Shown piece after piece: positions 3,442-49,650 of a DNA stretch of 49,650 bases. Both the position numbers and the translations under genes were made by a program. The DNA lies in NCBI GenBank assembly GCA_003220495.1, contig QHSP01000052.1, positions 1 through 49,650 of the forward strand, given 5' to 3'. Source of the DNA: Candidatus Rokuibacteriota bacterium (GTDB lineage Bacteria > Methylomirabilota > Methylomirabilia > Rokubacteriales > CSP1-6). The notes under the pieces were generated by a model. It was not told the origin of the DNA. It saw nothing but the letters and a program-made list of their open reading frames with translations, and made no database searches. Position 1 is the stretch's first letter; every line of letters starts with the position of its first letter.

Positions 3442-3872
3442 GACGCTCGGCGCGCGACGACCGGGGCTTCACCCTCGGCGAGGTCCTCGTGGCGACTTTC
3501 GTTCTCGCCATCGGCCTGGTGGGGATCGCCACTGGATTCCAGTACGCCACCAGCGGCGTGGAGCTGGGTCGAGGAGAAACGACCGCGGCCTTCCTCGCCG
3601 AGCAGCGGCTCGAATGGCTCAAGTCGCGGGCGCTGACTAACTGGACGAGCGCGACCCTGGAGGCCGGCGTCACGACGGAAGGGTACGGTTCCATCGCCGA
3701 CGCGGCGCTCTACCGTCGCGTGACGACGATCACCGACAGCCCGGGTGGCGCGTGCAGGGCGAACTGCAAGCTCGTGCAGGTGACCGTCTTCTACCGGCCG
3801 GTGACGGGGCAAGGCCAGCTCGATCAGGAGCGGCGGCTGGACGTGGTCACCATGCTCGTGGCCCGAAGCTGA
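3438..3872 (+). CDS. pilV: Minor pilin, PilV-like
   Basis: About 144 residues with leader MRRSARDDRG, cleavage before FTLGEVLVATFVLAIGLVG, Glu at mature position 5 and one long hydrophobic helix. The GEVLVA...LAIGLVGIA pattern and the downstream AAFLAEQRLEWLKSRA segment are typical of PilV/GspI proteins. It overlaps the FimT/GspH gene by ATGA. A PilW-like gene would normally follow but is absent: the next gene, after 34 bases, is PilX-like. Minor pilins of this kind form the pilus tip initiation complex in the inner membrane. Confidence 0.85.
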   Translation: MRRSARDDRGFTLGEVLVATFVLAIGLVGIATGFQYATSGVELGRGETTAAFLAEQRLEWLKSRALTNWTSATLEAGVTTEGYGSIADAALYRRVTTITDSPGGACRANCKLVQVTVFYRPVTGQGQLDQERRLDVVTMLVARS

Positions 3873-7728: not shown

Positions 7729-8181
7729 ATGCATGCACACCGGGGGGTGCTGATGTCGGTCGGCTTGGCCGTAATGCTGGGGGCCTGCGGGAACACCCCG
7801 CCGCCCGCTCCGCCGAAGCCGACCGCCGCATCCTCCCAGCGCGCGGCCGCCGCAGAGCAAGCGCCACCGGCCGAAGTCGTCGTTGCGGTGCCGAAGTATG
7901 ACGCCAGTGGGCGTCGCGATCCATTCGAAACCCTCGAGGTCCGCGAGGGCTCCGGAGGACTCACGGTGGCAGCCACTCGGCTCACGGGCATCGTTCGCAG
8001 CAATCGCGTAGCGCTCGCGCTGGTCGAGGCGCCCGATGGTATCGGGTACATCCTCAAACCCGGTGACACGCTCGGGGATGGCCGCCTGCTGGAGATCGGC
8101 TCCGACAGCGTGGTGTTCGTGGTGGCGCCCAAGACCGGCGCCGCGTCAAACCGCGTGGTTCTCAGACTGGCGACCAACTAA
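7729..8181 (+). CDS. pilP: Type IV pilus lipoprotein PilP
   Basis: 150 residues. A lipoprotein signal ends with lipobox MLGAC (Cys about residue 20). A Pro/Ala-rich linker follows, then a small beta-domain with YDASGRRDPF, the conserved 'grRDPF' entry of PilP, and TRLTGIVRSNRVALALVEAPDGIGY, continuing into the GxYLVKxGDxLG-type turn (here ILKPGDTLGDG). PilP links the PilN/PilO periplasmic domains to the secretin PilQ. The stop TAA directly abuts the pilQ ATG. An alternative start at Met9 would still give a valid lipoprotein signal. Confidence 0.92.
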   Translation: MHAHRGVLMSVGLAVMLGACGNTPPPAPPKPTAASSQRAAAAEQAPPAEVVVAVPKYDASGRRDPFETLEVREGSGGLTVAATRLTGIVRSNRVALALVEAPDGIGYILKPGDTLGDGRLLEIGSDSVVFVVAPKTGAASNRVVLRLATN

Positions 8182-35435: not shown

Positions 35436-36757
35436 GTGGAGCGCGGCGACACGAGCGCGGTGCGTACTCAAGGGCTGAGCCACGAGCATCCCGAGGTCTT
35501 CCAGAGACCCGACGCGCTGGGGCCCTCGCTGGCCGAACGCGTGACGTGGGCGGAGCGTCCGCTCGCCGTCGTGCTGTTGCTGCAACTCGCCCTGTCAGCG
35601 GTGCTGGTCGTCCTCATGGCGACGAGGAGCCCTGGCAACGCGCACCCCGACGAGATTTTTCATCTGGCGGCCGCTCGGTACTTTCGCGAGCACTGGCTGC
35701 CGCCATCGGTGGGCGCGCCAGGTGCCGAGTCGTCGTACAGCGGATACGGCTTCTCCTATCTGAACGAAGCCGACATCGTCTACTGGGCCTTCGGCAAGGC
35801 CGCCGCCGTCGCCCGCCTCGTGGGGATAGAGCCCGCCCTCGCGATGCGATGGCTCCAGGTGGGTCTCTACTCCGGGCTGATCGCCTGGATGATGTTTCGC
35901 GCCAGACGATTCACCCCGGCGCTCGGCTTCCTGCTGTTGACCCCGCAGGTCTGGTACGTCTTCTCGTACATCAACGGGGACGCGTTGCCCTTCGCGCTCC
36001 TCACGGCCCTGCTGGTGGAGCTCGGCTGGCCCGACTCCAGCGTCCGTCGCTTCTTCAAGGGCACCCGGGCGAGACCGACGCCAGGGGTCTTCGTCGTGGG
36101 TGCGCTGCTCGGCCTCCTCGCCCTCTCCAAGCTGAACTATCTGGTCAGCTTCGTGTTCCTCGGCTGGGCCATCCTGTGGCTCAGGAGCGAAGTTCGACAC
36201 TGGGGGCGGATCGCCCTCCTCGCGTCGATTGCGGCCGTCATCGCGATGCCGTGGGTTGTCTATCACGGCTGGGTGAACGACTGGGAGACCGGGAAGCGCG
36301 TGGCGGACTATTCGGAGCAGGTCGCGGCGCCCCAGATGAAGCCTTCGGCGCAGGCGAGTCCCGACTCGTTTCCGTTCCGAGCTTCTGCGGCGTCTACGGT
36401 TGGATGACTGTCGCGGCGGATCCGCTGGTCTACGGCGTGTTCGGCGGCCTCTATGCCGTCTTGCTGGCGCTCCTCGTCTTTCCGTCGTTCCGGCGAGGGT
36501 CGCCCGGCCTTCAGTCCCTGCTGATCGGCGTCCTGGTCTGCGCCGCGCTCGTCTTCGCGCAATCAGCCTACTGGTCCTGGGTGTACCACTTCCAGCCACA
36601 GGGGCGGTACCTGTTTCCCATTCTCCCGATGCTGTTTTTCTACTGGCGGCAGTGCGAGGCAGCGCCTCTACGCCTCCTCGCGCTCGTCGTGACGGCGCTG
36701 CTCGGCGCCCACGGGTTGCTCTCCTTCGCGCTGATCGGGCTCGGCAACCTTGTCTGA
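35436..36757 (+). pseudogene. DUF2142-like membrane protein, frameshifted
   Basis: Two frames together encode one polytopic protein of about 440 residues. The first part (35436 to about 36350) has a hydrophobic start, the first-loop motif NAHPDEIFHLAAARYF and segments such as VLLLQLALSAVLVVLMAT. It then loses membrane character and stops at 36407. The second part continues in the -1 frame with SFCGVYGWMTVAADP and four further hydrophobic segments up to the TGA at 36755-36757. The switch lies about 36315-36385 and equals one missing base (or two extra). It is either a sequencing/assembly error, a recent inactivation or, less likely, programmed frameshifting; no slippery heptamer is evident. 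If intact it would be a GT-C-like surface-glycan protein. Confidence 0.8.
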
Positions 36758-36827
36758 GGACCGGAGCGATGCTGGACATGGTGAACGCCGGACGGTTCGT
36801 GTCGACTCCCCGGTCGGTGGGGCGGTC

Positions 36828-37544
36828 GTGAGCGCGCGCGCCTTTCGCGATCTCCGCGAGTTCAAGTCGTGGAACGACGCGATGGTCGAGAAGTACGACG
36901 TCGAGCAGTTCCACGATCACCCGAGCCCGCTGATCCGGTACATCGAGCGCAAGCGGGTCCGTCGCATCCTGGCCCTGCTCGCTGCATGCCCCGGGGATCG
37001 AGTGCTGGAGATCGGCTGCGGCGCCGGAAACATCCTGGCCCAGATACCCAATGCCCGGCGTTGCGGGCTCGATCTCGCGGAGTCGCTGCTGGCGAAGGCG
37101 GCGCGCCGGCTCGTGAAGCGGGGAACGCTCGTGCAGGGCGACGCCGAGCACCTGCCCTTCCGAGATCGCGCGTGGGAGCGCGTCTATTGCTCGGAGGTAC
37201 TCGAGCATATCCCCTCGCCGGGCTCGGCGCTCGCCGAGATGCGCCGGATCGTGGCGGACGGCGGTGTCGCCGTCGTTTCAGTGCCGAACGAGCGGTTGAT
37301 CAACACGCTCAAGGCGATGCTTCGCGCGAGCGGGCTCTACCGCGTCCTGCTGGGCGCGCGCTCCGGCAACTACCAGATGCCGGAACGGATGGACGACGAG
37401 TGGCATCTGCACGTCTTCGATCTCGCCGGGCTGCTCGCGTTGATCCCGAAGGGGCTGCGCGTCACGCGCGTCGAGGGCATCCCGTTCGGGTGGCTTCCCC
37501 TTCGCTACGTCGTGCGCTGCGAATCCGACACTCGGGAGCCGTGA
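36828..37544 (+). CDS. Class I SAM-dependent methyltransferase
   Basis: About 238 residues. SAM-binding motif I VLEIGCGAGNILAQIP, post-I CGLDLAESLLAKA, and DAEHLPFRDRAWERVYCSEVLEHIPSP (motifs II-III), as in UbiE-like Methyltransf_11 proteins found in polysaccharide clusters. The GTG at 36828 follows GGTGGGGCGG and gives the start MSARAFRDLREF; an upstream ATG at 36750 would add 26 unlikely residues and overlap the previous gene. It overlaps the next GT2 gene by one base (TGATG). It may methylate a sugar, a polyprenyl intermediate or a small molecule. Confidence 0.87.
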   Translation: MSARAFRDLREFKSWNDAMVEKYDVEQFHDHPSPLIRYIERKRVRRILALLAACPGDRVLEIGCGAGNILAQIPNARRCGLDLAESLLAKAARRLVKRGTLVQGDAEHLPFRDRAWERVYCSEVLEHIPSPGSALAEMRRIVADGGVAVVSVPNERLINTLKAMLRASGLYRVLLGARSGNYQMPERMDDEWHLHVFDLAGLLALIPKGLRVTRVEGIPFGWLPLRYVVRCESDTREP

Positions 37545-38506
37545 TGGCTGAGCTCGAGGGCGTCTCGGTCGTCCTGCCGGTCCTCAACGAGCGCGACAAT
37601 CTCGAGCCGCTCCACGCGCGGCTCACCGAGGCGCTCAAGCCGCTCGGCCGCGACTACGAGATCATCTACGTGGACGATGGCTCCAGCGACGGCTCGTGGG
37701 ACGTGCTGCGCGCGCTCGCCGCGGGTGACTCCAGCGTTCGGCTGGTGCGTCTGCGGAAGAACTTCGGCCAGACGCCGGCGCTGTCGGCGGGTCTCGCTCA
37801 CTCGCGCTATCCAATCCTCGTCACGCTGGACGCTGATCTGCAAAACGATCCTCGCGACATCCCGAGGCTCCTCGAGGCGCTCGGCGATTCCTACGACGTG
37901 GTCTCGGGGTGGCGGCGCCACCGGAACGATCTCTGGCTCTCGCGCCGTCTGCCCTCGAATGCGGCGAACTTCCTGATTCGCAAGGTCAGCGGCGTGCCGC
38001 TCCACGACTTCGGGTGTACGCTCAAGGCCTACCGGCGCGAGGTCATTCAGGACGTGAGCCTCTACGGGGACATGCACCGGTTCCTCCCGGTTCTCGCCGC
38101 GTGGGTCGGCGGCCGGGTGACCGAGATGGAAGTGACCCACCACCCGCGGACTCGCGGCGTGTCGAAGTACGGGTTGACGCGGATCTACAAGGTGCTGGTC
38201 GACCTGATCACCTTGAAGTTCATCGGAGATTTCTCGTCGCGCCCCAACTACATCTTCGGCGGATTCGGGCTCCTGAACCTCGCCCTCGGGATGCTCGCGT
38301 TCGCTGTCGTTGCCTATCGCGTCCTGGTCATGCACCACCTGGAGGCGACGCCGCTGGTCTTCCTGATGGTGCTGTTCTCGATCACCGGCATTCTCTCGCT
38401 GTTCATCGGCTTCCTCGCTGACATCATCATCCGCGGCTTCTACGACGCGAAGCGCAAACCCACCTACTACGTGCGCGAGTCGGTGGGCATCGAGCGGCCG
38501 GACTAG
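37544..38506 (+). CDS. GT2 glycosyltransferase with C-terminal membrane segments (DPM1/GtrB/ArnC-like)
   Basis: 320 residues. VSVVLPVLNERDNLEPLHARL, nucleotide site IIYVDDGSSDGSWDVL, metal site VTLDADLQNDP, then HDFGCTLKAYRREV, all typical of polyprenyl-phosphate glycosyltransferases. Two C-terminal membrane segments (about 240-300) match the GtrB/ArnC subgroup, which makes polyprenyl-phosphate-linked sugars such as those used by GT39 enzymes. It is a good candidate donor-synthase for the GT-C proteins around it (inference). Start overlaps the methyltransferase stop. asnB follows after five bases. Confidence 0.92.
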   Translation: MAELEGVSVVLPVLNERDNLEPLHARLTEALKPLGRDYEIIYVDDGSSDGSWDVLRALAAGDSSVRLVRLRKNFGQTPALSAGLAHSRYPILVTLDADLQNDPRDIPRLLEALGDSYDVVSGWRRHRNDLWLSRRLPSNAANFLIRKVSGVPLHDFGCTLKAYRREVIQDVSLYGDMHRFLPVLAAWVGGRVTEMEVTHHPRTRGVSKYGLTRIYKVLVDLITLKFIGDFSSRPNYIFGGFGLLNLALGMLAFAVVAYRVLVMHHLEATPLVFLMVLFSITGILSLFIGFLADIIIRGFYDAKRKPTYYVRESVGIERPD

Positions 38507-38511
38507 GCGAC

Positions 38512-40404
38512 GTGTGCGGCATCGTCGGTAACGTCCTCGCGCGCGGGGACCGGGCGCCGGACCCGGCCGTCCTGAAGCGGATGAACGACCAACTTGCCCA
38601 TCGGGGCCCCGACGACGAGGGATTCTTCATCGAAGGCCCGGCCGCGCTGGCGATGCGCCGGCTCAAGATCATCGACCTCGCGACGGGCCATCAGCCGATG
38701 AGCGGTGAGGACCGCCGCGTCTGGACGGTCTTCAACGGCGAGATCTACAACTACCGCGAGTTGACCGCCGAGCTCACCGGCCGCGGCCACGGCTTCCGGA
38801 CGCGCTCGGACACCGAGGCCATCGTGCACGGATACGAGGAGCGTGGGCTCGCCTTCCTGGGCGAACTCGAAGGGATGTTCGCGTTCGCGCTCTGGGATGC
38901 GCCGGCGCGCACGCTCGTCCTCGCCCGCGACCGGCTCGGGATCAAGCCGCTCTACTACGCGGTCCTGCCCGACCAGATCGTCTTCGCCTCCGAGCTCCGA
39001 GCCCTCGTCGAGCACCCGGCGATCGACCGCACCCTCGACCTGACTGCGCTGTCGCGCTACCTCGCCCACGAGTACGTCCCGGCGCCGGCGTCGATCTTCC
39101 GCTCGATCCGCAAGCTCCCGGCCGGCCACTGGCTGACGTACACCGACGGACGCGTCAAGATGGAGCCGTACTGGGCGGTCTCGTTTCGCCCCGATCACAC
39201 GATCGGTGTCGCGGATGCAGTCGAGAGGCTCCGCGGCGCCTTGGACCTCGCCGTCCGCCAGCACCTCGTCAGCGACGTGCCGCTGGGCGTCTTTCTCTCC
39301 GGCGGCATCGACTCGAGCACCGTCGCGGCCTTCGCCGCCCGGCACGTCGGAAGCCGCCTCAAGACCTTCTCGATCGGCTTCGAGGATGCGTCCTTCGACG
39401 AATCGGTCCACGCCCGCCGTGTGGCGCAGGCGCTCGGCACGGAGCACCACGAGGAGGTCCTGGATGCCCGTAGAGCACGGGACCTCGTCGAGCGACTTCC
39501 AGATCTCCTCGACGAGCCGCTCGGCGATGCGTCGCTGATCCCGACGTTCCTGCTCTCGCGCTTCACGCGCCGCTCGGTGACCGTCGCGCTCTCGGGCGAC
39601 GGCGGCGACGAGCTATTCGCCGGCTACCCGACGTACCAGGCTCATCGCCTCGCCCGCGGGGTGGAGGCGATCCCGCGCTGGCTCTGGCGCGGGCTCGTGC
39701 GGCCCGCCGTCGAGCGCCTCCCGGTTTCGCTCAGCAATCTGAGCCTCGACTTCAAGCTCAAACGGTTCGTCGAAGGAATGGACTATGCCGACGTCGAGCG
39801 CCACGCCGTCTGGCTCGGCTCGTTCACGCCGGCCGAGCAGCAAGAGCTGTTCACACCCGAGGCGCTCGGGCGCATGGAGGCGCCGCCCTCGTACACCGCG
39901 TTCCACGAGATCCTGGCGTCGGCACCGTCGCTGGACGGCCTCGAGCGTATGCTCTACCTCGACCTCAAGGGCTACCTCGGCGAGGGGGTCCTGACGAAGA
40001 CCGACCGCGCCAGCATGGCCTGTTCTCTGGAGGTCCGCGTGCCGCTCCTCGACCGCCGTGTCGTCGAGCTGGCGGCGCGACTTCCGATGGACCTGAAGCT
40101 CCGCGGCCTCACGACGAAGTGGGTGCTCAAGCGCGCCCTCGCCGGTGCCCTCCCCGCCGAGATCCTGGCGCGGCCGAAGAAGGGCTTCGGAATCCCGATC
40201 GGTCACTGGTTCCGCGACGAGCTCCGCCCGCTCATGCGGGACGTGTGCGGAAATGATGCGATCCGTCGCGGCGGCCTCTTTCGCCCGGAGACGGTCGAAC
40301 GGCTGATGACCGAGCACGAGAGCCAGCGTCGAGATCATCGCAAGAAGCTCTACACGCTCCTCGCGTTCCAGCTCTGGGCTTCCCGCTACCGCCTCGTGAG
40401 CTAG
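38512..40404 (+). CDS. asnB: Asparagine synthase (glutamine-hydrolysing) family amidotransferase
   Basis: 630 residues. N-terminal Ntn glutaminase domain with Cys2 (MCGIVGN), HRGPDDEGFF, and NGEIYNYREL; C-terminal synthetase domain with PP-loop SGGIDSS from residue 263, DGGDELFAGYPTY, and KTDRASMACSLEVRVPLLD. Length is that of AsnB. The GTG start is fixed by the essential Cys2. In polysaccharide clusters this family may amidate sugar or lipid acids rather than aspartate; context leaves this open. The stop codon shares a CTAG with the stop of the convergent GT39 gene. Confidence 0.95.
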   Translation: MCGIVGNVLARGDRAPDPAVLKRMNDQLAHRGPDDEGFFIEGPAALAMRRLKIIDLATGHQPMSGEDRRVWTVFNGEIYNYRELTAELTGRGHGFRTRSDTEAIVHGYEERGLAFLGELEGMFAFALWDAPARTLVLARDRLGIKPLYYAVLPDQIVFASELRALVEHPAIDRTLDLTALSRYLAHEYVPAPASIFRSIRKLPAGHWLTYTDGRVKMEPYWAVSFRPDHTIGVADAVERLRGALDLAVRQHLVSDVPLGVFLSGGIDSSTVAAFAARHVGSRLKTFSIGFEDASFDESVHARRVAQALGTEHHEEVLDARRARDLVERLPDLLDEPLGDASLIPTFLLSRFTRRSVTVALSGDGGDELFAGYPTYQAHRLARGVEAIPRWLWRGLVRPAVERLPVSLSNLSLDFKLKRFVEGMDYADVERHAVWLGSFTPAEQQELFTPEALGRMEAPPSYTAFHEILASAPSLDGLERMLYLDLKGYLGEGVLTKTDRASMACSLEVRVPLLDRRVVELAARLPMDLKLRGLTTKWVLKRALAGALPAEILARPKKGFGIPIGHWFRDELRPLMRDVCGNDAIRRGGLFRPETVERLMTEHESQRRDHRKKLYTLLAFQLWASRYRLVS

Positions 40405-42062
40405 GGCGTCTGGCGGCGAGCGATGTGCATCGGCGGGCCGCCTTCGGGCACCCGGTACCAGTGCAGGTGTGGCTCCGGAATATTGTCCCACGGCGTGTCA
40501 GTCGCCGGTGACAGCACCCCAGCGTAGTGATTCGTGCCCACGATGCTCCGGACCCAGGCGTGTTTCCGCTCCGTGTCGGCGCGGTGAACTGGCCGATCGA
40601 CGAAGGAGAAGGGGGTTCGGACGACGATCCACTCCGGCTCCGGCCACCCGTCGAGCGGTCGACCCGACTGGCCACCACGAACCTCCAGCCCGGTGTAGAA
40701 CACGACGACGAGGTCGCCATAGCTGATGAAGACTCGGTCGGTCGGCGCCGCTGAGTGCGCGAGCACGTTCAGGAGCAGCTCCATGGGGCCGGGGTAGGAA
40801 CGCGTCATCTCGTGCAGGACATTCCCCAATGGAAAGAAGACGTCGTAGACCTGAAAGGCCTGGCGTTTCGCGTCGCGCATACTGAAGGATGGCTGGGGCA
40901 GGGGCGCGACCACATGGAACATCGCCGTCAGCAGCAGGCACGCCGTGATCGGAGCGCCCACGAGTCGGCTCCAGCGCAGCAAGCACGCACACATGAAGGC
41001 CAGCATGACGCTGGCGACGGGAAGCAGGCCCACCGTATAGCGGTAGAAGAACCAGGGGGCCGCCGTGACCGCCGCCAGGTAGGCGCCCTGGAACACGACG
41101 AGCGCGAGAAATGGACGCCAGGCCCAGGGCTCGACGAACGGACGGCGGCGCGCCCACCACGCGAGTGTCAGAAAGAGCGGGAGCGTCACGAATGGGAACG
41201 TGTAGCGGTTCGTCAGCGCGAGGTAGACCCGGACAGTGTCCCAGACTCTATACAGCCGTGGCTCCGACGTCGCCGGGCTGAAGAGATAGACGGACGGAGC
41301 GTTGAGGAGGAGCACCACGGCGGCCGCGAGCGCGACGCGCCGCCGGGCCGGTGCATCGAAGCGGATCACCAGCGCACACGGGACAAGGGCCATGACCGTG
41401 GTCGCGGCGTTCAGGATGCTCGACTGAAACAGCAGGGTCATCGCTGCCACGAATCCCGCGATGGCGAACCGCCGTCCGCGCGCTATCCCCGCGAAGAAGT
41501 ACAAGACCCAGATCGTGCACAGGATGGCCGGGCTGTAGTAGCGACACTGGCGGACATGAAGGATGAACGGGACGGACAGCGCGAGAAACGCCATCGCGAG
41601 GACGCCGATCCAGCGGTCACGGAAGAACGCCAGCGCCAGAGGATACATCGAGATGACGCAGACAAGCCCGAGCAACGCGAACGGAAAGCGCGCGGAGAAC
41701 GTCGACTCCCCGAGCACGGCGAAACTGGCGGCGGCAAGGTACTTGTCCAGCCACGGCGTCCACCGCCACACGTAGTCGGGGCCGTACTCTCGACCCACCT
41801 CCTGCGAGATGATGTTTCGTCCGTCGAAGGCGGTGGGCACACCGTGAGCGAGGATGCTGCGGCCCAGCAGCGCAGTCTCGGCCTCGTCCATCCAGAGCAT
41901 TCGGTTGTCGAGTGAGAAGAAGATGAGCAGCGCGCTGACGAGGACCACCGCCATCGCCGTCGCCGTGACCGCATCGGGCGCCCTCGCGGTCGCCAGATTG
42001 GCCGTAACGTCGCTCACCGACGGGCGCCGGATGGCCGATGGGATGAAGCGTGCCAAGGGCAT
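40401..42062 (-). CDS. GT39-type membrane glycosyltransferase
   Basis: 553 residues with about ten to twelve membrane segments. First loop MLWMDEAETALLGRSILAHG (D-E acidic motif), then TFSARFPFALLGL, VRQCRYYSPAILC (the 'R.aRyYs' segment seen in GT39 proteins) and a soluble tail with PTDRVFISYGDLVVVFYTG. Function as for other lipid-linked sugar transferases, substrate unknown. ATG 42062 lacks a clear RBS; a Met at residue 37 just before the first membrane segment is a possible alternative. It converges on asnB with a 4-base overlap of stop codons. Confidence 0.84.
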   Translation of the reverse strand: MPLARFIPSAIRRPSVSDVTANLATARAPDAVTATAMAVVLVSALLIFFSLDNRMLWMDEAETALLGRSILAHGVPTAFDGRNIISQEVGREYGPDYVWRWTPWLDKYLAAASFAVLGESTFSARFPFALLGLVCVISMYPLALAFFRDRWIGVLAMAFLALSVPFILHVRQCRYYSPAILCTIWVLYFFAGIARGRRFAIAGFVAAMTLLFQSSILNAATTVMALVPCALVIRFDAPARRRVALAAAVVLLLNAPSVYLFSPATSEPRLYRVWDTVRVYLALTNRYTFPFVTLPLFLTLAWWARRRPFVEPWAWRPFLALVVFQGAYLAAVTAAPWFFYRYTVGLLPVASVMLAFMCACLLRWSRLVGAPITACLLLTAMFHVVAPLPQPSFSMRDAKRQAFQVYDVFFPLGNVLHEMTRSYPGPMELLLNVLAHSAAPTDRVFISYGDLVVVFYTGLEVRGGQSGRPLDGWPEPEWIVVRTPFSFVDRPVHRADTERKHAWVRSIVGTNHYAGVLSPATDTPWDNIPEPHLHWYRVPEGGPPMHIARRQTP

Positions 42063-42396: not shown

Positions 42397-45069
42397 TCAC
42401 GGCCCGGACACCGTGAGCGTCGCGCTCCCGAAGAAACTGAAGGAGTTGGTCCCGGTCTGCAGCCAGACCTGAGCCTGAACCGTGCCCGCCGACAGGCCCG
42501 GCAGATTCGGCGTGAGCGTTGTCGCCGTCGTCGGGAACGGCACGGTCAGCGTGGTGCTCATGAGCGCGGTAGCCCGCGCCTGCGCGAGCAGCGTGCCGCC
42601 GCGCATGAAGTTCACGACCGGCAGGCCGAACCCGAGGTTCGCGAAGCCGTTGCCGGTGATCGTGAAGCTGGCGGGCGGCATCGCCACGTTGATCGCGTCG
42701 GGGCTGATGCCGGTCACTCGCGTGTCGGTCACCGTGAGCGTGGCGCTCCCGATCAGGCTGAAGGAATTCGCGCTCGTCTGCTGCCAGACCTGGGCCTGGA
42801 CGGTACCGACCGAGAGCCCGGGCAGGTTCGGCGTGAGCGATGTGGCCGGCGTCGGGTACGGCACCGTCAACGTCGTGCCCCCGGCGAGCCCCGTCGCCCG
42901 GGCTTGCGCGACGAAGGCGCCGTTGCGCATGAAGTTCACGACCGGCAGGCCGAACCCGAGGTTCGCGAAGCCGGTGCCGGTAATCGTGAAAGTCGCCGGC
43001 CGGGTCGCCAGATCGACCGGGTTGGGAACGATGCCACTCACGCCCCGGGTGTCGGTCGCCGTGAGCGTGCCGCTCCCGATCAGGCTGAAGGTCGGCGTGC
43101 TCGATGTCTGATGCCACACCTGAGCCTGTATCTGCCCCGCCGAGAGCCCGGGCAGGTTCGGCGTGAGCGATGTGGCCGGCGTCGGGTACGGCACCGTCAA
43201 GGTCGTGCTCCCGGCGAGCCCCGTCGCCCGTGCTTGCGCGATCAAAGCGCCGTTGCGCATGAAGTTCACGACCGGGAGGCCGTAACCGAGATTCGCAAAG
43301 CCGTAGCCGGTGATTGTGAACGTCGCCGGTGGCGTCGCCAGGTCGATCGGGCTGGGAACGATGGCGCTGACGCCCGCGCCGATGCCGGTGACCGCAACGG
43401 TGACGTCACCGCCATTCGAGGTGAAGCTCACGTTCGCCGAGACCACGCCGGGCGCCGTCGGGCGGAATCGCACCACGACCGACTGGGTCGAGTTGGGGCC
43501 GAGGTTGAAGGAACCCCCGGAGACGATGCTGAACGGGGAATTTGCAGATGCGCTGCCGGTGAGAATCCCGCCGCCGGTATTCTGGACGACGAACGTTCTG
43601 TCAACAGAGCCGCCCACGGCCACCGTGCCGAAGTCCTGCGAAGTCGGAGTCACCGACAGGGCTGGAGGCTCCTGATTGTCCCCGAGCAAGACGCTCAGCG
43701 CGAGGTCGACCTGGATCCTGGGCTTGGTCGTGCCCGTTCCCGCCCGTGGGTCCGTGATCGGGAGCCCCGTGCTGGTGAGGGCCTGGAGGATCGCGTCGAC
43801 GCTCGCCGTCGGCGCGGCCTGCTTCAGGATGGCCCACGCGCCCGCCACGTGCGGGGCTGCCATCGACGTGCCGCTCGCCACCGCGAAATTCTCGCCGGGG
43901 TACGATGAGATGATCTCGTCGCCGGGAGCGAACAACGACATGAAGGGCGCCACGTTCGAGTAATCGGCGACGCGGTCGTCCTTCGTCGTGGCACCGACGC
44001 TCACGGCGCTGGACACGCACGCCGGCGCGCTGATCTGGTTGGGCGACCCGTCGTTGCCGGACGCGATGACGGTCGCGATGCCCGCGGCGCGCAAGTTGTC
44101 GATAAAGGGCTTGTACGGCTCGTCGTCGCACGGCCCGCTGAAGAGTCCGCCCCCGAGACTCATGTTGACCGACGCGAAATCGTGCACGGTCCGCAGATCG
44201 TAGACGCGCTCAAGGGCGGCGAGGATGTCCGACGTGTACGCGCCCAGGCACGGAGGCGCGCCGCCGCAGTCGAGGAAGCTCGTGATCCGCGAGAAAACCT
44301 GGATCGACATGATGCTGGCGCCACGGCCGACGCCCCAGATGGGCAGGTCGAACGGCGTCCCGTCGCCGGCGACGATGCCGGCCACGTGGGTCCCGTGCCA
44401 GCAGCCCTCGAGGTCGAGCGGGCAGTACACGCCGGCGCCGGGCCCGATCTGCTCGTCGGCACCGTTCGGGCAGAGCGACTGGCTCTGGAACCCCGACGTG
44501 GTGGAATAGCACGCCTCGTCGATGACCTTGCCCGCGAGGAACGGGTGCGCGGAGTCGACGCCGCTGTCGATCACCGCCACCGTACGGCCGGAGCCGTCGA
44601 AGCCGAGGGCCCAGGCCTGATCGGCGCCGATCAGGGGGACGCTGTCCCACAAGACCGGCTTGTGGATCCTGTCGGCCATCACGCGCTTGACCGGTAGGTT
44701 GGCCGCTTCGAGCTCCTTGAGCGCCGACGGCCCGACGCTGAGCGCCAGCAGCGGCGACGTCAGGTAGCGACGCAGAACGCGATAGTGATGCGACGCCAGC
44801 CGACCCAGGACCCGCGAGCCGGTGGCGGTGATCTCCTGTCGGTACGCGTCACGCGCCTGGGACGCGAGCGCGCCCTCGGCGACGCGGCCGGAGGGAAGCG
44901 CGAGCTCGACGAGCACGCGAACCTCGCCTTCAGCGAGCGCACGATCATGGAGCGCACGCGGCACCACGCCCGGCTTCTGATCCGGAGGCGCCGCGAGCGC
45001 GTACGCGGGCAGGATGATGCCCAGCAACAATAAATTTACGGAAATTGGCCATCGGAGCCGTCGCCACAT
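42397..45069 (-). CDS. Secreted subtilisin-like serine protease with C-terminal repeat domains
   Basis: 890 residues. Signal peptide about 1-26 (LLLLGIILPAYALA), an inhibitor-I9-like propeptide (about 48-140, VRVLVELALPSG...LASHHYRVLRRYL), then an S8 catalytic domain with Asp168 (VAVIDSGVDSAHP), His225 (CWHGTHVAG), oxyanion Asn in ASGNDGS and Ser402 (SGTSMAAPHVAG). Residues about 470-565 form a choice-of-anchor-D-like beta domain (VTPTSQDFGTVAVGG). Three repeats of about 108 residues follow (from 568, 678 and 786), each with TFTITGxGFANLGxGLPVVNFMR; they look like IPT/TIG-type beta-sandwiches. All catalytic residues are intact, so a working exported protease is likely. Remnants of a homologue lie just upstream and at 48.5-49 kb. 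Confidence 0.93.
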   Translation of the reverse strand: MWRRLRWPISVNLLLLGIILPAYALAAPPDQKPGVVPRALHDRALAEGEVRVLVELALPSGRVAEGALASQARDAYRQEITATGSRVLGRLASHHYRVLRRYLTSPLLALSVGPSALKELEAANLPVKRVMADRIHKPVLWDSVPLIGADQAWALGFDGSGRTVAVIDSGVDSAHPFLAGKVIDEACYSTTSGFQSQSLCPNGADEQIGPGAGVYCPLDLEGCWHGTHVAGIVAGDGTPFDLPIWGVGRGASIMSIQVFSRITSFLDCGGAPPCLGAYTSDILAALERVYDLRTVHDFASVNMSLGGGLFSGPCDDEPYKPFIDNLRAAGIATVIASGNDGSPNQISAPACVSSAVSVGATTKDDRVADYSNVAPFMSLFAPGDEIISSYPGENFAVASGTSMAAPHVAGAWAILKQAAPTASVDAILQALTSTGLPITDPRAGTGTTKPRIQVDLALSVLLGDNQEPPALSVTPTSQDFGTVAVGGSVDRTFVVQNTGGGILTGSASANSPFSIVSGGSFNLGPNSTQSVVVRFRPTAPGVVSANVSFTSNGGDVTVAVTGIGAGVSAIVPSPIDLATPPATFTITGYGFANLGYGLPVVNFMRNGALIAQARATGLAGSTTLTVPYPTPATSLTPNLPGLSAGQIQAQVWHQTSSTPTFSLIGSGTLTATDTRGVSGIVPNPVDLATRPATFTITGTGFANLGFGLPVVNFMRNGAFVAQARATGLAGGTTLTVPYPTPATSLTPNLPGLSVGTVQAQVWQQTSANSFSLIGSATLTVTDTRVTGISPDAINVAMPPASFTITGNGFANLGFGLPVVNFMRGGTLLAQARATALMSTTLTVPFPTTATTLTPNLPGLSAGTVQAQVWLQTGTNSFSFFGSATLTVSGP
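42400..43368 (-). repeat. Three tandem coding repeats of about 320 bp in the subtilase gene
   Basis: Units lie at about 43039-43368, 42715-43038 and 42400-42714. The first two share long identical DNA stretches (for example around 42830-42880 and 43150-43206), showing recent duplication or conversion; the third is more diverged but keeps GNGFANLGFGLPVVNFMR. Confidence 0.85.
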
Positions 45070-45184
45070 GGCCCTGCATAGTGCGCAACGACCGTGCCAT
45101 CCGCAACCTGCTTGAACGGCAGGATTTCAGGGCATGTGACGCGTGACGCTTTGGCAGTCGCAGTGACCCAGGGCGTCACTCGTG

Positions 45185-45411
45185 AGCGTCAGCGACGCGA
45201 CGACCGGTCTTCGTAGAGCGGAGCGCCCGAGACGCGCGCCAGAGCCCGCCACTCGGCGCGGAGCCTCGTCCTGGGTCCTCTCGATCACCGAAGGGTCGCC
45301 GGTGACGCGAAGATCGACGAAGATACGCGCGATGCCCGCGCCGATGGCAGCGGCGCAACGAGGACAGCGGCCGTCTGCAGGGCCCACGTCTCTCGGCCGC
45401 GTCCGCGCCAA
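45185..45411 (-). pseudogene. Subtilase propeptide remnant (copy A)
   Basis: On the minus strand this encodes IARIFVDLRVTGDPSVIERTQDEAPRRVAGSGARLG in parts, which aligns with VRVLVDLRV...STQDEALRRLAGSGARLV of the relic at 48.7-49 kb and with the propeptide of the intact subtilase. No signal peptide or catalytic domain remains. Compared with copy B it lacks about 110 bp before the shared motif TCTTCxTAGAGCGGAG (plus strand). The region 45070-45185 between it and the intact subtilase shows nothing else. Confidence 0.75.
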
Positions 45412-45880
45412 CGCGCGATTGCCGTGTGGACAGCGCGGAATCGATTCATCGACTCATGTTACTCGCACCGTCACGTCGGGGATGCGGCACTGAGCGCCAT
45501 CACGATGTCCTGGGGGCATCGACACGGACGGTGGGGTCTCGAGTCGCAACTCGCCGCGGACCGCCCCAACAGATAGTGCTCATTGTGTCGTTCGCCCCCT
45601 CGGGGTGCCACCGAAAAGGATTGTTTGTAGCCCTCTCACGCCCACGCTATTCGTGGAAGATGGGTCGCGCGCGGCCGTGGGCGTCGGCGCCGGGCGCTCA
45701 ACCGTAGCGCAACGAGGCTCGCTCCGGACTCCGCGACCGCGCAGCTGGCTCTGGGAGCGGCCGCCGAAGCCCTCGGAGAGTTCGACGAAGCGCTGAGCGC
45801 CTACCAGGCGGCGGCTCGGCGCGCTCCCTCCACCACGACCTGGCTCCGCCTTGCCGAGATGGCTGATCGGATCGGAGTGA
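45190..45880 (+). repeat. Direct repeat, copy A of the relic/TPR module
   Basis: This segment aligns collinearly and in the same orientation with 48640-49548: a subtilase propeptide remnant on the minus strand, a shared upstream block (CCCCTCGGGGTGCCACCGAAA, then GGATTGTTTGT and CGCCCACGCTATTC), and the start of a TPR lipoprotein gene on the plus strand. Copy A carries internal deletions in both genes. Confidence 0.8.
45660..45880 (+). pseudogene. TPR lipoprotein gene remnant (copy A)
   Basis: The start ATGGGTCGCGCGCGGCCGTG parallels the intact gene at 49214, but the frame stops after MGRARPWASAPGAQP. About 110 bases holding the lipobox and first TPR are deleted. Homology resumes at ACGAGGCTCGCTCCGGACTC (about 45711) and stays near 90 per cent to about 45875, in a different frame from the start. 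The gene is inactive. Confidence 0.85.
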
Positions 45881-45979
45881 GTGCCTGTCCATGGCCGGCT
45901 CTATCACAATCCGCTTGACGCTGGCGAGCTTCGCGCATCGCGCTGATGTTCTCTCAGCTCCTCGAGCCGCGCGAGGTCC

Positions 45980-46043
45980 GGCGCTACACCGTGGGCTGCG
46001 AATCCGATGACCGGGAACACGCGAACCATGGCTGAGCCCGAGG
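45980..46043 (+). other. Fragment resembling the methyltransferase-GT2 gene junction
   Basis: About 60 bases (GGGCTGCGAATCCGA...CGGGA...ATGGCTGAGCCCGAGGG) match the junction at 37501-37562 (GCGCTGCGAATCCGA...CGGGA...ATGGCTGAGCTCGAGGG), with a small insertion before the ATG. The left part would encode the end of a methyltransferase (RYTVGCESDDRE against RYVVRCESDTRE). It suggests recombination at this site. Confidence 0.6.
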
Positions 46044-47644
46044 GCAGCGCGGTGAGGAGGCGCGACCGGACCCTGCAAGGGGTTAGGCTGTCTCCGGACG
46101 TTCTCGTGATCGTGCTCCTATCGCTCGCCCTCGCGGTGGCCTGCCTCTTGGTGCAGGGCAACATCGACCTCAACCTTGCCGACGAGGGACAACTCTGGTA
46201 CGTGACGACGCGCACCGCGCTCGGCGACGTTCCGATGCGCGACATCCGCAGTTACGATCCTGGCCGCTATTACTGGGGCGCGGCGTGGTTCAAGCTGCTT
46301 GGACCTGGCATCATCTCGCTGCGGATCAGCACTACCTTTGTGCAGGCGCTGGGCCTGCTCTTCGGCCTTCTCACACTCCGCCGCGTCGTCTTGCGCTGGT
46401 GGCTCCTGGCCACCCTCGGGGTGCTCCTGCTCGCATGGATGCATCCGGTCTACAAGGCATACGAGTCCGCGACGGCCCTCGCCCTCGTGTGGCTCGCCGT
46501 GCGACTCCTGGAGGCGCCGACGCCCGTCCGCCACTTCGCCGCCGGGGTCGGCATCGGACTTGCCGCCTTCGTCCGCGTGGACCACGGCCTCTATTCCACC
46601 GCCGCGTTCGCGCTCCTGATCCTCTTCCGCGCCCTGCGCGAGCGGAAGGTGTCGGCTCGCGATCTCGGCGCCGCGGCGGCCGGGATCGTCGTCGGATACT
46701 CTCCGATGCTCGTCATGCTGGTCGCCGTGCCTGGGTTCTTCGGCGGCCTCATCGAGCACGTCGCCTACCTCGTGCGCATCGTGGCGTCGAACGGCACCGC
46801 GAACCTCGCCAAGCCAGTGCCGTGGCCCTGGGTCGTCAGCGCCGACCTGCCGGCCCTCGAGCGCCTGCACCAGATCTGCGTCGGGGCCTTATTCATGGCA
46901 GTCCCGGCGCTCTATTTGCTCGCAGCGGTCGTCGTGGTGCGCTCGCCGGGCGACGATACGGCCGGACGCCGGCTCGTCCTGGCGGCCGGCTTCGTCGGCG
47001 TCATGTACGCACAGTACACGTTCGCGCGTCCCGACCTCGAGCACCTCGCGCAGAGCTTCCATCCGCTCGTCATCCTGGTGACCGGCCTTGGGGCAACGCT
47101 CGGTTCGCGGCTGCGCGCGAGAGCGCCTGCGCTGCTGCTGCTTGTGGTGGGGTGCACAGGGCTGACCGTCGTCATCAAGAGCCCCGTCTACCTTTGGGCC
47201 ACCGAAGTCCGCAACCCATACGTCCAGGTGCGGGTGGCTGATGACGTGCTCTGGGTGCATCCCGGCGTCGCGGGGTTACTCGACAGCGTGCGCGTGACCG
47301 CCGACGCGGTGCTGGCCCCCGGCGAGCGGATCCTCGTCGCTCCACACTGGCCGGCCTTGTATGTGCACCTCCACCGCGAGTCACCGCTCTGGGAGACGTA
47401 CTTCATCGTTCCCGAGCCCGAGGAACGCCAGCGCCGGATGATCGGCGACCTCGAGCGGCGCAATGTAACGGCCGTCCTCCTGAGCGACCTTGTCATGGAC
47501 TCCCGCGCCGATTTGCACTTCGGCCGAACGCACCCGCTCGTTTACCGTTATCTGCTGGAGCGCTATGAGAAGATCCCGGTAGGCGGCATGCCACCGTGGG
47601 CGCATTTTCTCCGTCGGAAGGCCACAGCCGCGGTGGCCCGGTGA
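46028..47644 (+). CDS. GT-C-type membrane glycosyltransferase-like protein
   Basis: About 538 residues with many hydrophobic segments. The first loop has NIDLNLADEGQLWYVTTRTALGD (given in part: DEGQLWY), an acidic motif like that of GT39 proteins, followed by RDIRSYDPGRYYWGAAWFKL. The soluble C-terminus (ERILVAPHWPALYVHLHRES) resembles those of other members here. ATG 46028 (MAEPEGS) is preferred because its upstream matches the start region of the GT2 gene at 37544; an ATG at 46007 would add seven residues. It sits between direct repeats A and B with the next gene. Donor and acceptor unknown. Confidence 0.78.
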   Translation: MAEPEGSAVRRRDRTLQGVRLSPDVLVIVLLSLALAVACLLVQGNIDLNLADEGQLWYVTTRTALGDVPMRDIRSYDPGRYYWGAAWFKLLGPGIISLRISTTFVQALGLLFGLLTLRRVVLRWWLLATLGVLLLAWMHPVYKAYESATALALVWLAVRLLEAPTPVRHFAAGVGIGLAAFVRVDHGLYSTAAFALLILFRALRERKVSARDLGAAAAGIVVGYSPMLVMLVAVPGFFGGLIEHVAYLVRIVASNGTANLAKPVPWPWVVSADLPALERLHQICVGALFMAVPALYLLAAVVVVRSPGDDTAGRRLVLAAGFVGVMYAQYTFARPDLEHLAQSFHPLVILVTGLGATLGSRLRARAPALLLLVVGCTGLTVVIKSPVYLWATEVRNPYVQVRVADDVLWVHPGVAGLLDSVRVTADAVLAPGERILVAPHWPALYVHLHRESPLWETYFIVPEPEERQRRMIGDLERRNVTAVLLSDLVMDSRADLHFGRTHPLVYRYLLERYEKIPVGGMPPWAHFLRRKATAAVAR

Positions 47645-47723
47645 TGGCATCGAGCACGAGGGAATTCACACCTGGAACGAGCGTTATGCAACCTCGCGCC
47701 ATCGCGGAAAGGGCTCGCGCCGG

Positions 47724-48494
47724 ATGAGCGCGCGGCGGCAGACGACCTTCACCAGCGAGGAGTACGCCAACGCCTACCCGGAGGGGATCGAGCGCCACTA
47801 CTGGACCCTCGCCCGCAACCACTACGTCGCGAGGCTGCTGCGGTGGGCGCCCGGCTCGGGAGACCTCGTGCTCGACATCGGCTGCGGGCGAGGTCTCACC
47901 GTGGAGTATCTGCGCGAACACGGCTTCGACTGCCGTGGTTGCGAGCTCTCCGACGTGGCAATCCCAGCGCATCGGCAGGCATACTGCGCGTCTTCCAGCG
48001 ACGCCTTCGCGCTTCCCGAGAAGTTGCGCGGCCGAGTCGGGGCCATCCTGTTGCTGGACGTTCTCGAACATCTGGAGGATCCGGCCGGCTTCCTCGACCA
48101 ATGCGTCACGACGTTCCCGGCCCTGCGGTCGCTTGTGGTGATGGTTCCGGCGCGGATGGAGCTCTGGTCCAACTACGACGAGTACTATGGCCACAAGACG
48201 CGCTTCGACCTGCCGTCGCTGCACGCGCTCGTCGCGCGTGAGGGTCTGAAGGTGGCGGAGATTGGGTACTTCTTCCACGCGCTCTACCCGCTGCTCCGCC
48301 TGTTGAAGGCGTTCCGCTGTAGACGCGAAATTCGCAACTCGGCACCACGCCGGATGTTCGTGCACCGGTTCCTCGCGCGCGGACTGGTGGCCGACGGTTT
48401 CCTTCCGAGCCGCTGGTATGGCAGCTCGATTGCGGCGATCCTTCACCGCGTGCCGGAAGACCGAAGCCCAGGTTCGCGAAGCCGTTGCCCATGA
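47724..48494 (+). CDS. Class I SAM-dependent methyltransferase with altered 3' end
   Basis: 256 residues. Motif I LVLDIGCGRGLTVEYL, acidic post-I region CRGCELSDVAIPAHR, and ILLLDVLEHLEDPAGFLDQ mark a Methyltransf_11/23-type enzyme; FFHALYPLLRLLKAF near the end is typical of surface-glycan cluster members. Native-looking sequence runs to about SSIAAILHRV. The last dozen residues (EDRSPGSRSRCP) are read from the antisense of a subtilase relic that starts about 48453, so the gene's original stop has been replaced. Probably still functional because the fold is complete. It follows the GT-C gene by 79 bases. Confidence 0.85.
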   Translation: MSARRQTTFTSEEYANAYPEGIERHYWTLARNHYVARLLRWAPGSGDLVLDIGCGRGLTVEYLREHGFDCRGCELSDVAIPAHRQAYCASSSDAFALPEKLRGRVGAILLLDVLEHLEDPAGFLDQCVTTFPALRSLVVMVPARMELWSNYDEYYGHKTRFDLPSLHALVAREGLKVAEIGYFFHALYPLLRLLKAFRCRREIRNSAPRRMFVHRFLARGLVADGFLPSRWYGSSIAAILHRVPEDRSPGSRSRCP

Positions 48495-49005
48495 TGTAGC
48501 CCGCGCTTGCGCGATCGAGGATCTCGTCGGCGCTCGCCGTCGGCGCGGACCGCTTCAGTATCGCGCACGCACCCGCCGCGTGCGGGGCCGCCACAGACGT
48601 GCCGCTCGCCAGCGCGAAGCTCTTCCCGGGGTAGCAGCGGCGCGACGAGCGCTCTTCCTAGAGCGGAGTGATTCGATCCACGCGAACGCGCGCGACGATG
48701 TCGCGCATCGCTTCGAGGCGGGCCAACGCCGGAGCATCGATCTCGAGCGCCAGCAGCGGAGCCGTCGCAAAACGACGCACGAGGCGCGCACCGGAGCCGG
48801 CCAGGCGGCGTAGCGCCTCGTCCTGGGTGCTCACGATGGCCGATGGTCCACCCGCGGCGACACGAAGGTCGACGAGCACCCGCACCGTGCCGGCACGGAT
48901 GGCGGCACGAACGTCGGGGTCGATCACCGGATCATCCGCGCCGCTCGCGCTCCATGCGCCCGCCAGCGCGACCAGGGCCATGGCGGCCACGCTGAATCGA
49001 ATCAT
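48453..49005 (-). pseudogene. Subtilase relic with internal deletions (copy B)
   Basis: One minus-strand frame preserves three parts of a secreted subtilase. First come a signal peptide and I9-like propeptide (49005 to 48661; MIRFSVAAMALVALAGAWSA, then VRVLVDLRV and LRRLAGSGARLVRRF), ended by an in-frame TAG at 48658-48660. Then the catalytic-serine segment YPGKSFALASGTSVAAPHAAG continues into ILKRSAPTASADEIL. Last is a scrap of the C-terminal repeat, MGNGFANLGFGLP. The Asp/His half of the catalytic domain and most of the repeats are missing. All three parts share one frame, so the deletions were in-frame. Each part matches the intact subtilase at 42397-45069. Confidence 0.88.
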
Positions 49006-49548
49006 GGCGTCATCTTACCCGCTCCGTCGCATTCGGCACGCGGGCCGAGCGCCGTCACGACACGCCTTGGCGTGGACATTGTCGGTGGCCGCGCTCGAGT
49101 CGCGGAGTGACGCGCAGCGCCCCAACCACTAGTGCACATCGTGCGCATCTCCCCTCGGGGTGCCACCGAAAGGATTGTTTGTCGCCCTCTCGCGCCCACG
49201 CTATTCCTGGTAGATGGGTTGTGCTCGGCCTTGGGTGCCGGCGCTCGGCGCTCTCGGCCTCATCGCGCTGCTCGCCGGATGCGAGACATCACGGCAGGCC
49301 GGCGCCGCGGTCGATGCGGGACGTCGGGCGACGGAGCAGGGCGACCTTCCCGTGGCCCTGGAGCACTACCGCACCGCGACGAGGCTCGCTCCGGACTCCG
49401 CCACGGCGCAACTGGCTCTGGGAGAGGCCGCCGAAGCCCTCGGAGAGTTCGACGAAGCGCTGAGCGCTTACCAGGCGGCGGCTCGGCGCTCTCCTTCCAC
49501 GAGGACCTGGCTCCGTCTTGGCGCGATGGCCGATCGTATGGGCCAGGT
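48640..49548 (+). repeat. Direct repeat, copy B of the relic/TPR module
   Basis: The fuller partner of 45190-45880, in the same orientation. Shared sections are the TCTTCxTAGAGCGGAG junction, the propeptide remnant, the block CTCGGGGTGCCACCGAAA with GGATTGTTTGT and GCCCACGCTATTC, and the TPR gene up to about residue 110. Confidence 0.8.
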
Positions 49549-49650
49549 GGACGTGGCGATCCAGTCGCTCGAGCAAGCGTACGGGCCGTGGCGCGAGCAC
49601 GCCTCGATCGGTCTCAAGGTCGGCGTGGTCATGTTCGTGACGTGCGTGCC
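49214..49650 (+). CDS. TPR lipoprotein, truncated by the window end
   Basis: The frame opens at ATG 49214 and is still open at 49650 (145 residues seen). The N-terminus MGCARPWVPALGALGLIALL ends in the lipobox LLAGC (Cys about residue 23). TPR units follow: RRATEQGDLPVALEHYRTAT, AQLALGEAAEALGEFDEALS, TWLRLGAMADRMGQVDVAIQ. It should be a lipidated periplasmic or outer-membrane scaffold protein. No clear Shine-Dalgarno precedes the ATG; the upstream block GGATTGTTTGT...GCTATTC is conserved with the dead copy at 45.6 kb and may be its promoter. It diverges from the subtilase relic. Confidence 0.85.
   Translation, partial: MGCARPWVPALGALGLIALLAGCETSRQAGAAVDAGRRATEQGDLPVALEHYRTATRLAPDSATAQLALGEAAEALGEFDEALSAYQAAARRSPSTRTWLRLGAMADRMGQVDVAIQSLEQAYGPWREHASIGLKVGVVMFVTCV

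Follow-up and report, generated by a model that had tools for sequence, protein, structure and literature searches.

Direct repeats around two glycan genes of a Rokuibacteriota surface-glycan cluster as probable remains of a doubled and pruned segment

In bacteria, tandem duplications that arise by recombination are regarded as widespread and unstable (PMC8942028). Fractionation, or reciprocal gene loss, is described for maize after tetraploidy (PMC2893956). On the protein side, Plasmodium has SUB1-ProM, a stand-alone propeptide-like protein that is encoded beside subtilases and inhibits SUB1 (PMC6993865). Here, we compare these systems with a locus in a window of 49,650 nucleotides (contig C117) from a draft genome of 5.98 Mb in 159 contigs (labelled G000). 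For comparison, 38 genomes of relatives were used, and all genomes in this study are draft assemblies. The arrangement at the right end of the window is, with fair probability, what erosion has left of a segment that was doubled and then lost its redundant genes reciprocally.

Two diverged copies of an I9-leader-TPR unit

Comparison of the window with itself revealed two direct repeats that run collinearly in one orientation, 45190-45875 (copy A) and 48635-49542 (copy B). They consist of three matching pieces: 34 bp at 88% identity (45190-45223 and 48635-48668), 488 bp at 71% (45224-45699 and 48776-49253; E 1e-53) and 186 bp at 88% (45690-45875 and 49357-49542; E 1e-64). Throughout, the copies are 71-88% identical with many indels, and the longest exact run measures 42 bp. 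An earlier note on this DNA had placed such repeats at 45190-45880 and 48640-49548, with about 90 per cent identity in the TPR part and a shared non-coding block. These repeats are real, the TPR part was measured at 88% over 186 bp, and the non-coding block is present as the leader of the TPR gene; the similarity also extends beyond the TPR part. Across all 159 contigs, the repeats match only copies A and B and the start of contig C29, where it overlaps the window.

The repeated unit comprises an I9 (propeptide-like) gene, a divergent leader and a TPR lipoprotein gene, and together with subtilase pieces these follow in identical order in both copies. Since this is the unit, its earlier description as a "subtilase/TPR module" is inaccurate, and the decay ascribed to it holds for one copy only. 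Copy A is a double pseudogene: its I9 gene (45190-45552, minus strand, aligned to 48635-49100) is broken by a 107-bp deletion and frameshifts. The leader and first codons of its TPR gene (45596-45699, plus strand) are 86% identical to 49169-49253, and the truncated TPR pseudogene behind them (45700-45875, plus strand; 88% to 49357-49542) carries an internal deletion of about 104 bp that shifts the frame, while its 3' end is gone and unrecognisable past 45875. Copy B has only a 181-bp subtilase remnant, followed by intact I9 and TPR genes.

The TPR lipoprotein gene of copy B (49214-49650, plus strand; PF13432; dN/dS 0.22 against the congener G006) runs on into contig C29 and encodes 453 aa in total across both contigs. 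The window ends 437 bp into this gene, and 49479-49650 is identical to the first 172 bp of C29 (G000:C29:1-172, 100%); the join is supported by the unbroken alignment of 48635-55476 to G006. Two adjoining TPR genes, 25-28% identical, stand head to tail here (49214-49650 and L009 1-2461), and the neighbourhood of the further genes after this pair is kept in G003 and G006. Upstream, the divergent intergenic region (49006-49213) holds the conserved leader (49151-49213, and 45596-45659 in copy A; CCCCTCGGGGTGCCACC...ATTGTTTGT...CACGCTAT), which is conserved to about the same degree as coding sequence in G003, G006, G007 and G008. Neither the window nor the repeat region gave a match in Rfam, and the shared non-coding block was therefore treated as the TPR leader and not as a known RNA. 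The leader is possibly a regulatory element.

The I9 gene of copy B (48658-49005, minus strand) encodes an intact, stand-alone secreted protein of 115 aa with an I9 fold and is under purifying selection (dN/dS 0.27 against G006). The protein is homologous to the prodomain of the subtilase encoded at 42397-45069 (49% over 78 aa), and a sequence search of the PDB with it returned no match. Its structural model adopts the beta-alpha-beta-beta-alpha-beta propeptide fold (pLDDT 77). Foldseek ranks 1-6 for this model are subtilisin propeptides or pro-forms (E 0.005-0.03), and VIA-align to subtilisin propeptides gave Z 7-9, at an identity to solved propeptides of only about 8-27%. As modelled, the protein is a propeptide fold without a protease domain, and by analogy it could possibly act as a dedicated inhibitor or chaperone of a subtilase. 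In G006, G008, G002 and G011, a conserved counterpart directly precedes the subtilase gene. At least four relatives encode a stand-alone secreted protein of propeptide (I9-like) fold directly before a large subtilase (L051 7572-7853, L055 6116-6442, L057 8850-9179 and L058 8221-8565).

The only intact subtilase gene of the locus lies to the left of copy A (42397-45069, minus strand) and encodes a secreted S8 protease with Ig-like repeats (PF00082, E 8e-33; dN/dS 0.23 against G006). In copy B, recognisable subtilase-derived DNA is limited to the 181 bp at 48453-48633 (minus strand). These consist of separate pieces matching the resident gene, namely 43 bp of an Ig-repeat, about 21 bp, and 117 bp of the catalytic end with its Ser motif, with most of the sequence between them missing. 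The pieces are 86% identical to 42618-42660 and 85% to 43786-43902, and no relative is a closer match to the remnant than the resident subtilase.

The genes between the repeats and the home site of the GT-C gene

As the earlier note had stated, only a GT-C gene (46007-47644, plus strand) and a methyltransferase gene (MT2; 47724-48494, plus strand) lie between the repeats. The former encodes an intact GT-C-like membrane glycosyltransferase, the second of the cluster, without a match in Pfam or NCBIfam. Homologues were found on contig C65 of the same genome and in G006 at only 41-42% identity, and in Planctomycetota at 34-39%; a donor search across 95 genomes of the phylum and 84,980 species genomes returned only 34-42% homologues. 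MT2 is a SAM methyltransferase (PF13489, E 4e-14) for which the 38 relatives contain no close orthologue (at most about 42% over any stretch and at most 36% over most of its length). The antisense strand of the subtilase remnant supplies the last 13 codons and the stop of MT2, so that the 3' end of this gene was remade at the joining. The GC content of the two genes is unremarkable (0.68 and 0.66). No transposase or integrase domain was found among the scanned proteins of the window and no tRNA by a tRNA scan, which, together with the empty Rfam result, agrees with the proposal of an arrangement made without a transposase.

The left part of the cluster contains a methyltransferase gene (MT1; 36750-37544, plus strand; PF08241/PF13489), a GT2-type glycosyltransferase gene recognised from its translation (37544-38506, plus strand) and an XrtA-type amidotransferase/asparagine synthase gene (38512-40404, plus strand; PF00733, and TIGR03108 at 629 bits, below the cut-off of 816.9), the left anchor of a variable interval. 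Next to it lies GT-C glycosyltransferase 1 (GT-C1, PMT_2; 40401-42062, minus strand; PF13231), and over these last two genes the DNA is 90% identical to that of G006, a member of the same genus. Between MT1 and GT2, G006 carries about 40 N-terminal and about 36 C-terminal codons of the GT-C gene fused by an in-frame internal deletion (82 bp at 79% for the C-terminal remnant), and G003 carries a C-terminal fragment of it (51 bp at 80%). The two relatives have deleted the gene differently (L052, on C6 of G006, about 7854-8046; L059, on C18 of G003, about 3750-3820). In G003, another methyltransferase gene and a fatty-acid desaturase-like gene follow the remnant.

The relocated GT-C gene has kept a trace of this site. 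A remnant of the MT1 tail overlaps its start (45981-46053, plus strand; 75% to 37503-37569): it matches the resident MT1/GT2 junction over 72 bp at 75% (genome-wide E 3e-5) and, over 36 bp at 83%, the junction between MT1 and GT-C in G006. In a control, none of the random windows scored as high (0/1963; best 28.3 vs 45.5 bits). Given the leftovers of the GT-C gene between MT1 and GT2 in two congeners, and the MT1 tail preceding the intact copy here, this gene is, by sequence, most likely native to the cluster and now lies 8.5 kb from home with the end of MT1 still before it. The MT1 3' tail (37503-37544) is presumed to mark the left edge of the doubled segment. Between the end of copy A and the MT1-tail remnant, 105 bp of junction filler (45876-45980) have no useful match in this genome or the 38 relatives.

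The locus in relatives and the origin of copy A

G006 is the only close relative in which subtilase, I9 and TPR form this locus, with contig breaks inside the subtilase gene. There, the subtilase region corresponding to 42838-45238 is joined directly to that of 48635-55476, at 86% identity on the left of the junction and 87.6% over 6.9 kb on its right; the repeat is single, and GT-C and MT2 are both absent from this place. A 2.3-kb insertion between GT-C1 and the subtilase of G006 (L052 977-3242), encoding a spermine-synthase-domain protein of 789 aa, has no counterpart in the window. In G003, the TPR leader lies within about 130 bp after the asparagine synthase gene, and in G007 the interval from that gene to the TPR gene is filled by 5.7 kb of other genes (methyltransferase, hydantoinase). 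The interval is thus variable within the genus, and far from all relatives carrying both copies and both genes, these three differ. The cassette-free, single-repeat allele predicted earlier exists in G006, and the site is therefore polymorphic.

Such an allele could be expected if the two genes were an active cassette that came and went through recombination of the repeats on either side and so made the surface glycans variable. In principle, an exact match of 42 bp, as found inside the TPR block, suffices for RecA-type recombination. However, a crossover at this match would, as read from the sequence, leave the TPR gene frameshifted and remove the sole intact I9 gene, and a G006-like locus would be restorable only via the far-left 34 bp, which lack an exact 15-bp run. 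A working, reversible cassette is unlikely for these reasons. In addition, the repeats are only 71-88% identical and riddled with indels, the GT-C gene was relocated from inside the cluster, and the difference to G006 is one between species and not between strains. We therefore give an active cassette very little credence; of the earlier proposal, the cassette-free allele stands and movement by repeat recombination does not. The locus is most likely a fossil, and nothing suggests that the block still moves. More probably than otherwise, the flanking repeats are by-products of the doubling history and not working recombination arms.

The age of copy A can be approached through its TPR piece. 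Synonymous divergence (dS) in the TPR block is 0.28 between copies A and B and 0.165 between B and G006, and amounts to about 0.28-0.30 from either copy to G003 (0.295 for A), with w at 0.2-0.3 (0.21 for A versus B). In the TPR tree, copy A falls outside B and G006 with a bootstrap of 97, and the alternatives, at an AU p of about 0.05 (0.049), are only narrowly rejected. As the block is short (171 bp), this reading of age and source is a lean rather than proof; the subtilase remnant (118 bp) and I9 (223 bp) are too short or too fast for their trees to fix the branching order, and the combined data do not decide it. Apparently, the TPR piece of copy A diverged under purifying selection and before the split from G006, so that most of its changes would have been gathered while it was still coding and the second copy would be old or introgressed. 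Copy A is probably older than the G006 split or comes from a sister lineage, and a recent local duplication is unlikely.

An origin in a sister lineage would also suit a different history, in which a foreign GT-C-MT2 fragment, flanked by the I9-TPR and subtilase sequences of a relative, entered by homology-facilitated recombination and left a partial merodiploid that subsequently decayed. The TPR divergence is consistent with it, since copy A stands at the same distance from B as G003 does (dS 0.28) and falls outside the pair of B and G006; furthermore, close orthologues are absent for GT-C in 94 relatives and for MT2 in 38, and the locus differs between congeners. Nevertheless, the MT1 tail and the fragments of the GT-C gene left in G006 and G003 place that gene in the cluster of this genus, the GC content is unremarkable, and the subtilase remnant is at least as close to the resident gene as to any relative. 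We regard entry of a foreign fragment as a minority possibility. Somewhat more doubtful still is a general form of this idea, that the interval between the asparagine synthase and TPR genes is a site of recurrent exchange, where glycan segments enter from sister species via homologous flanks and without a mobile element, copy A being the footprint of one entry.

Finally, two strain variants of the locus could have been joined in tandem during assembly. The genome is a draft in 159 contigs, and the window, which overlaps C29 by 172 bp, breaks off within copy B of the TPR gene. Against this, the copies are too diverged for confusion, both outer junctions show the native gene order, and deletions accumulated on alternating sides fit a long decay; an artefact is highly improbable.

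Doubling, reciprocal loss and comparison with known systems

The doubling that we favour starts from a pieced-together order of MT1 - [GT-C] - GT2 - asparagine synthase - GT-C1 - subtilase - I9 - TPR. A second copy of the segment from the MT1 tail to the 5' half of the TPR gene would have been placed in tandem with the resident one, either by an internal duplication predating the G006 split or as a segment introgressed from a related lineage. This single placement would have made both repeats and the relocated GT-C gene, and with them a new join of TPR 5' half and MT1 tail. Such a novel join of right and left edges is what the window contains, where the 5' half of the TPR gene is followed by the 105-bp filler and then by the MT1 tail and the GT-C start. 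Subsequently, in an order of losses that we also infer, the left copy would have kept GT2, asparagine synthase, GT-C1 and the subtilase, while its GT-C gene was lost from the home site and its I9 and TPR genes decayed. The right copy would have kept GT-C, I9 and TPR, its subtilase shrinking to 181 bp. Loss of GT2, asparagine synthase and GT-C1 from the right copy is an assumption, made because a search for their remnants there found none. In the present locus, GT-C, GT2, asparagine synthase, GT-C1, subtilase, I9 and TPR are each intact once, and remnants are present for I9, TPR and the subtilase. Leftovers of every internal gene would strengthen the case for doubling but are not strictly demanded by it, as a deletion may take a whole gene. 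The doubling leaves MT2 and the junction filler unaccounted for.

The locus offers a readable case of how doubling and pruning, and not a mobile element, can rearrange the genes of a surface-glycan cluster. As a consequence of the rearrangement, a surface subtilase and its propeptide-like partner, adjoining in relatives, now lie 3.6 kb apart, separated by glycan genes. The case also cautions against reading every pair of repeats around genes as a working cassette.

A literature search for a described case of this kind yielded general parallels only. With bacterial tandem duplications (PMC8942028), the locus shares the direct repeats in the same orientation, the novel join of 3' and 5' edges and the independence from a transposase; unlike them, it is fixed and heavily eroded, its copies are complementary and long perfect repeats are gone. 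As in the fractionation described for maize (PMC2893956), redundant genes would have been lost from either copy, here too by deletions, whereas only one segment of a bacterial genome, no longer than about 12 kb, is concerned and not a whole genome. SUB1-ProM (PMC6993865) and POIA1 (PDB 1v5i) resemble the I9 protein as small secreted propeptide-fold proteins without a protease domain, and SUB1-ProM shares with it the position beside subtilases. The I9 protein differs from both in being bacterial, 115 aa long and only about 8-27% identical to solved propeptides. Taken together, the features of the locus are a new instance of processes already known.
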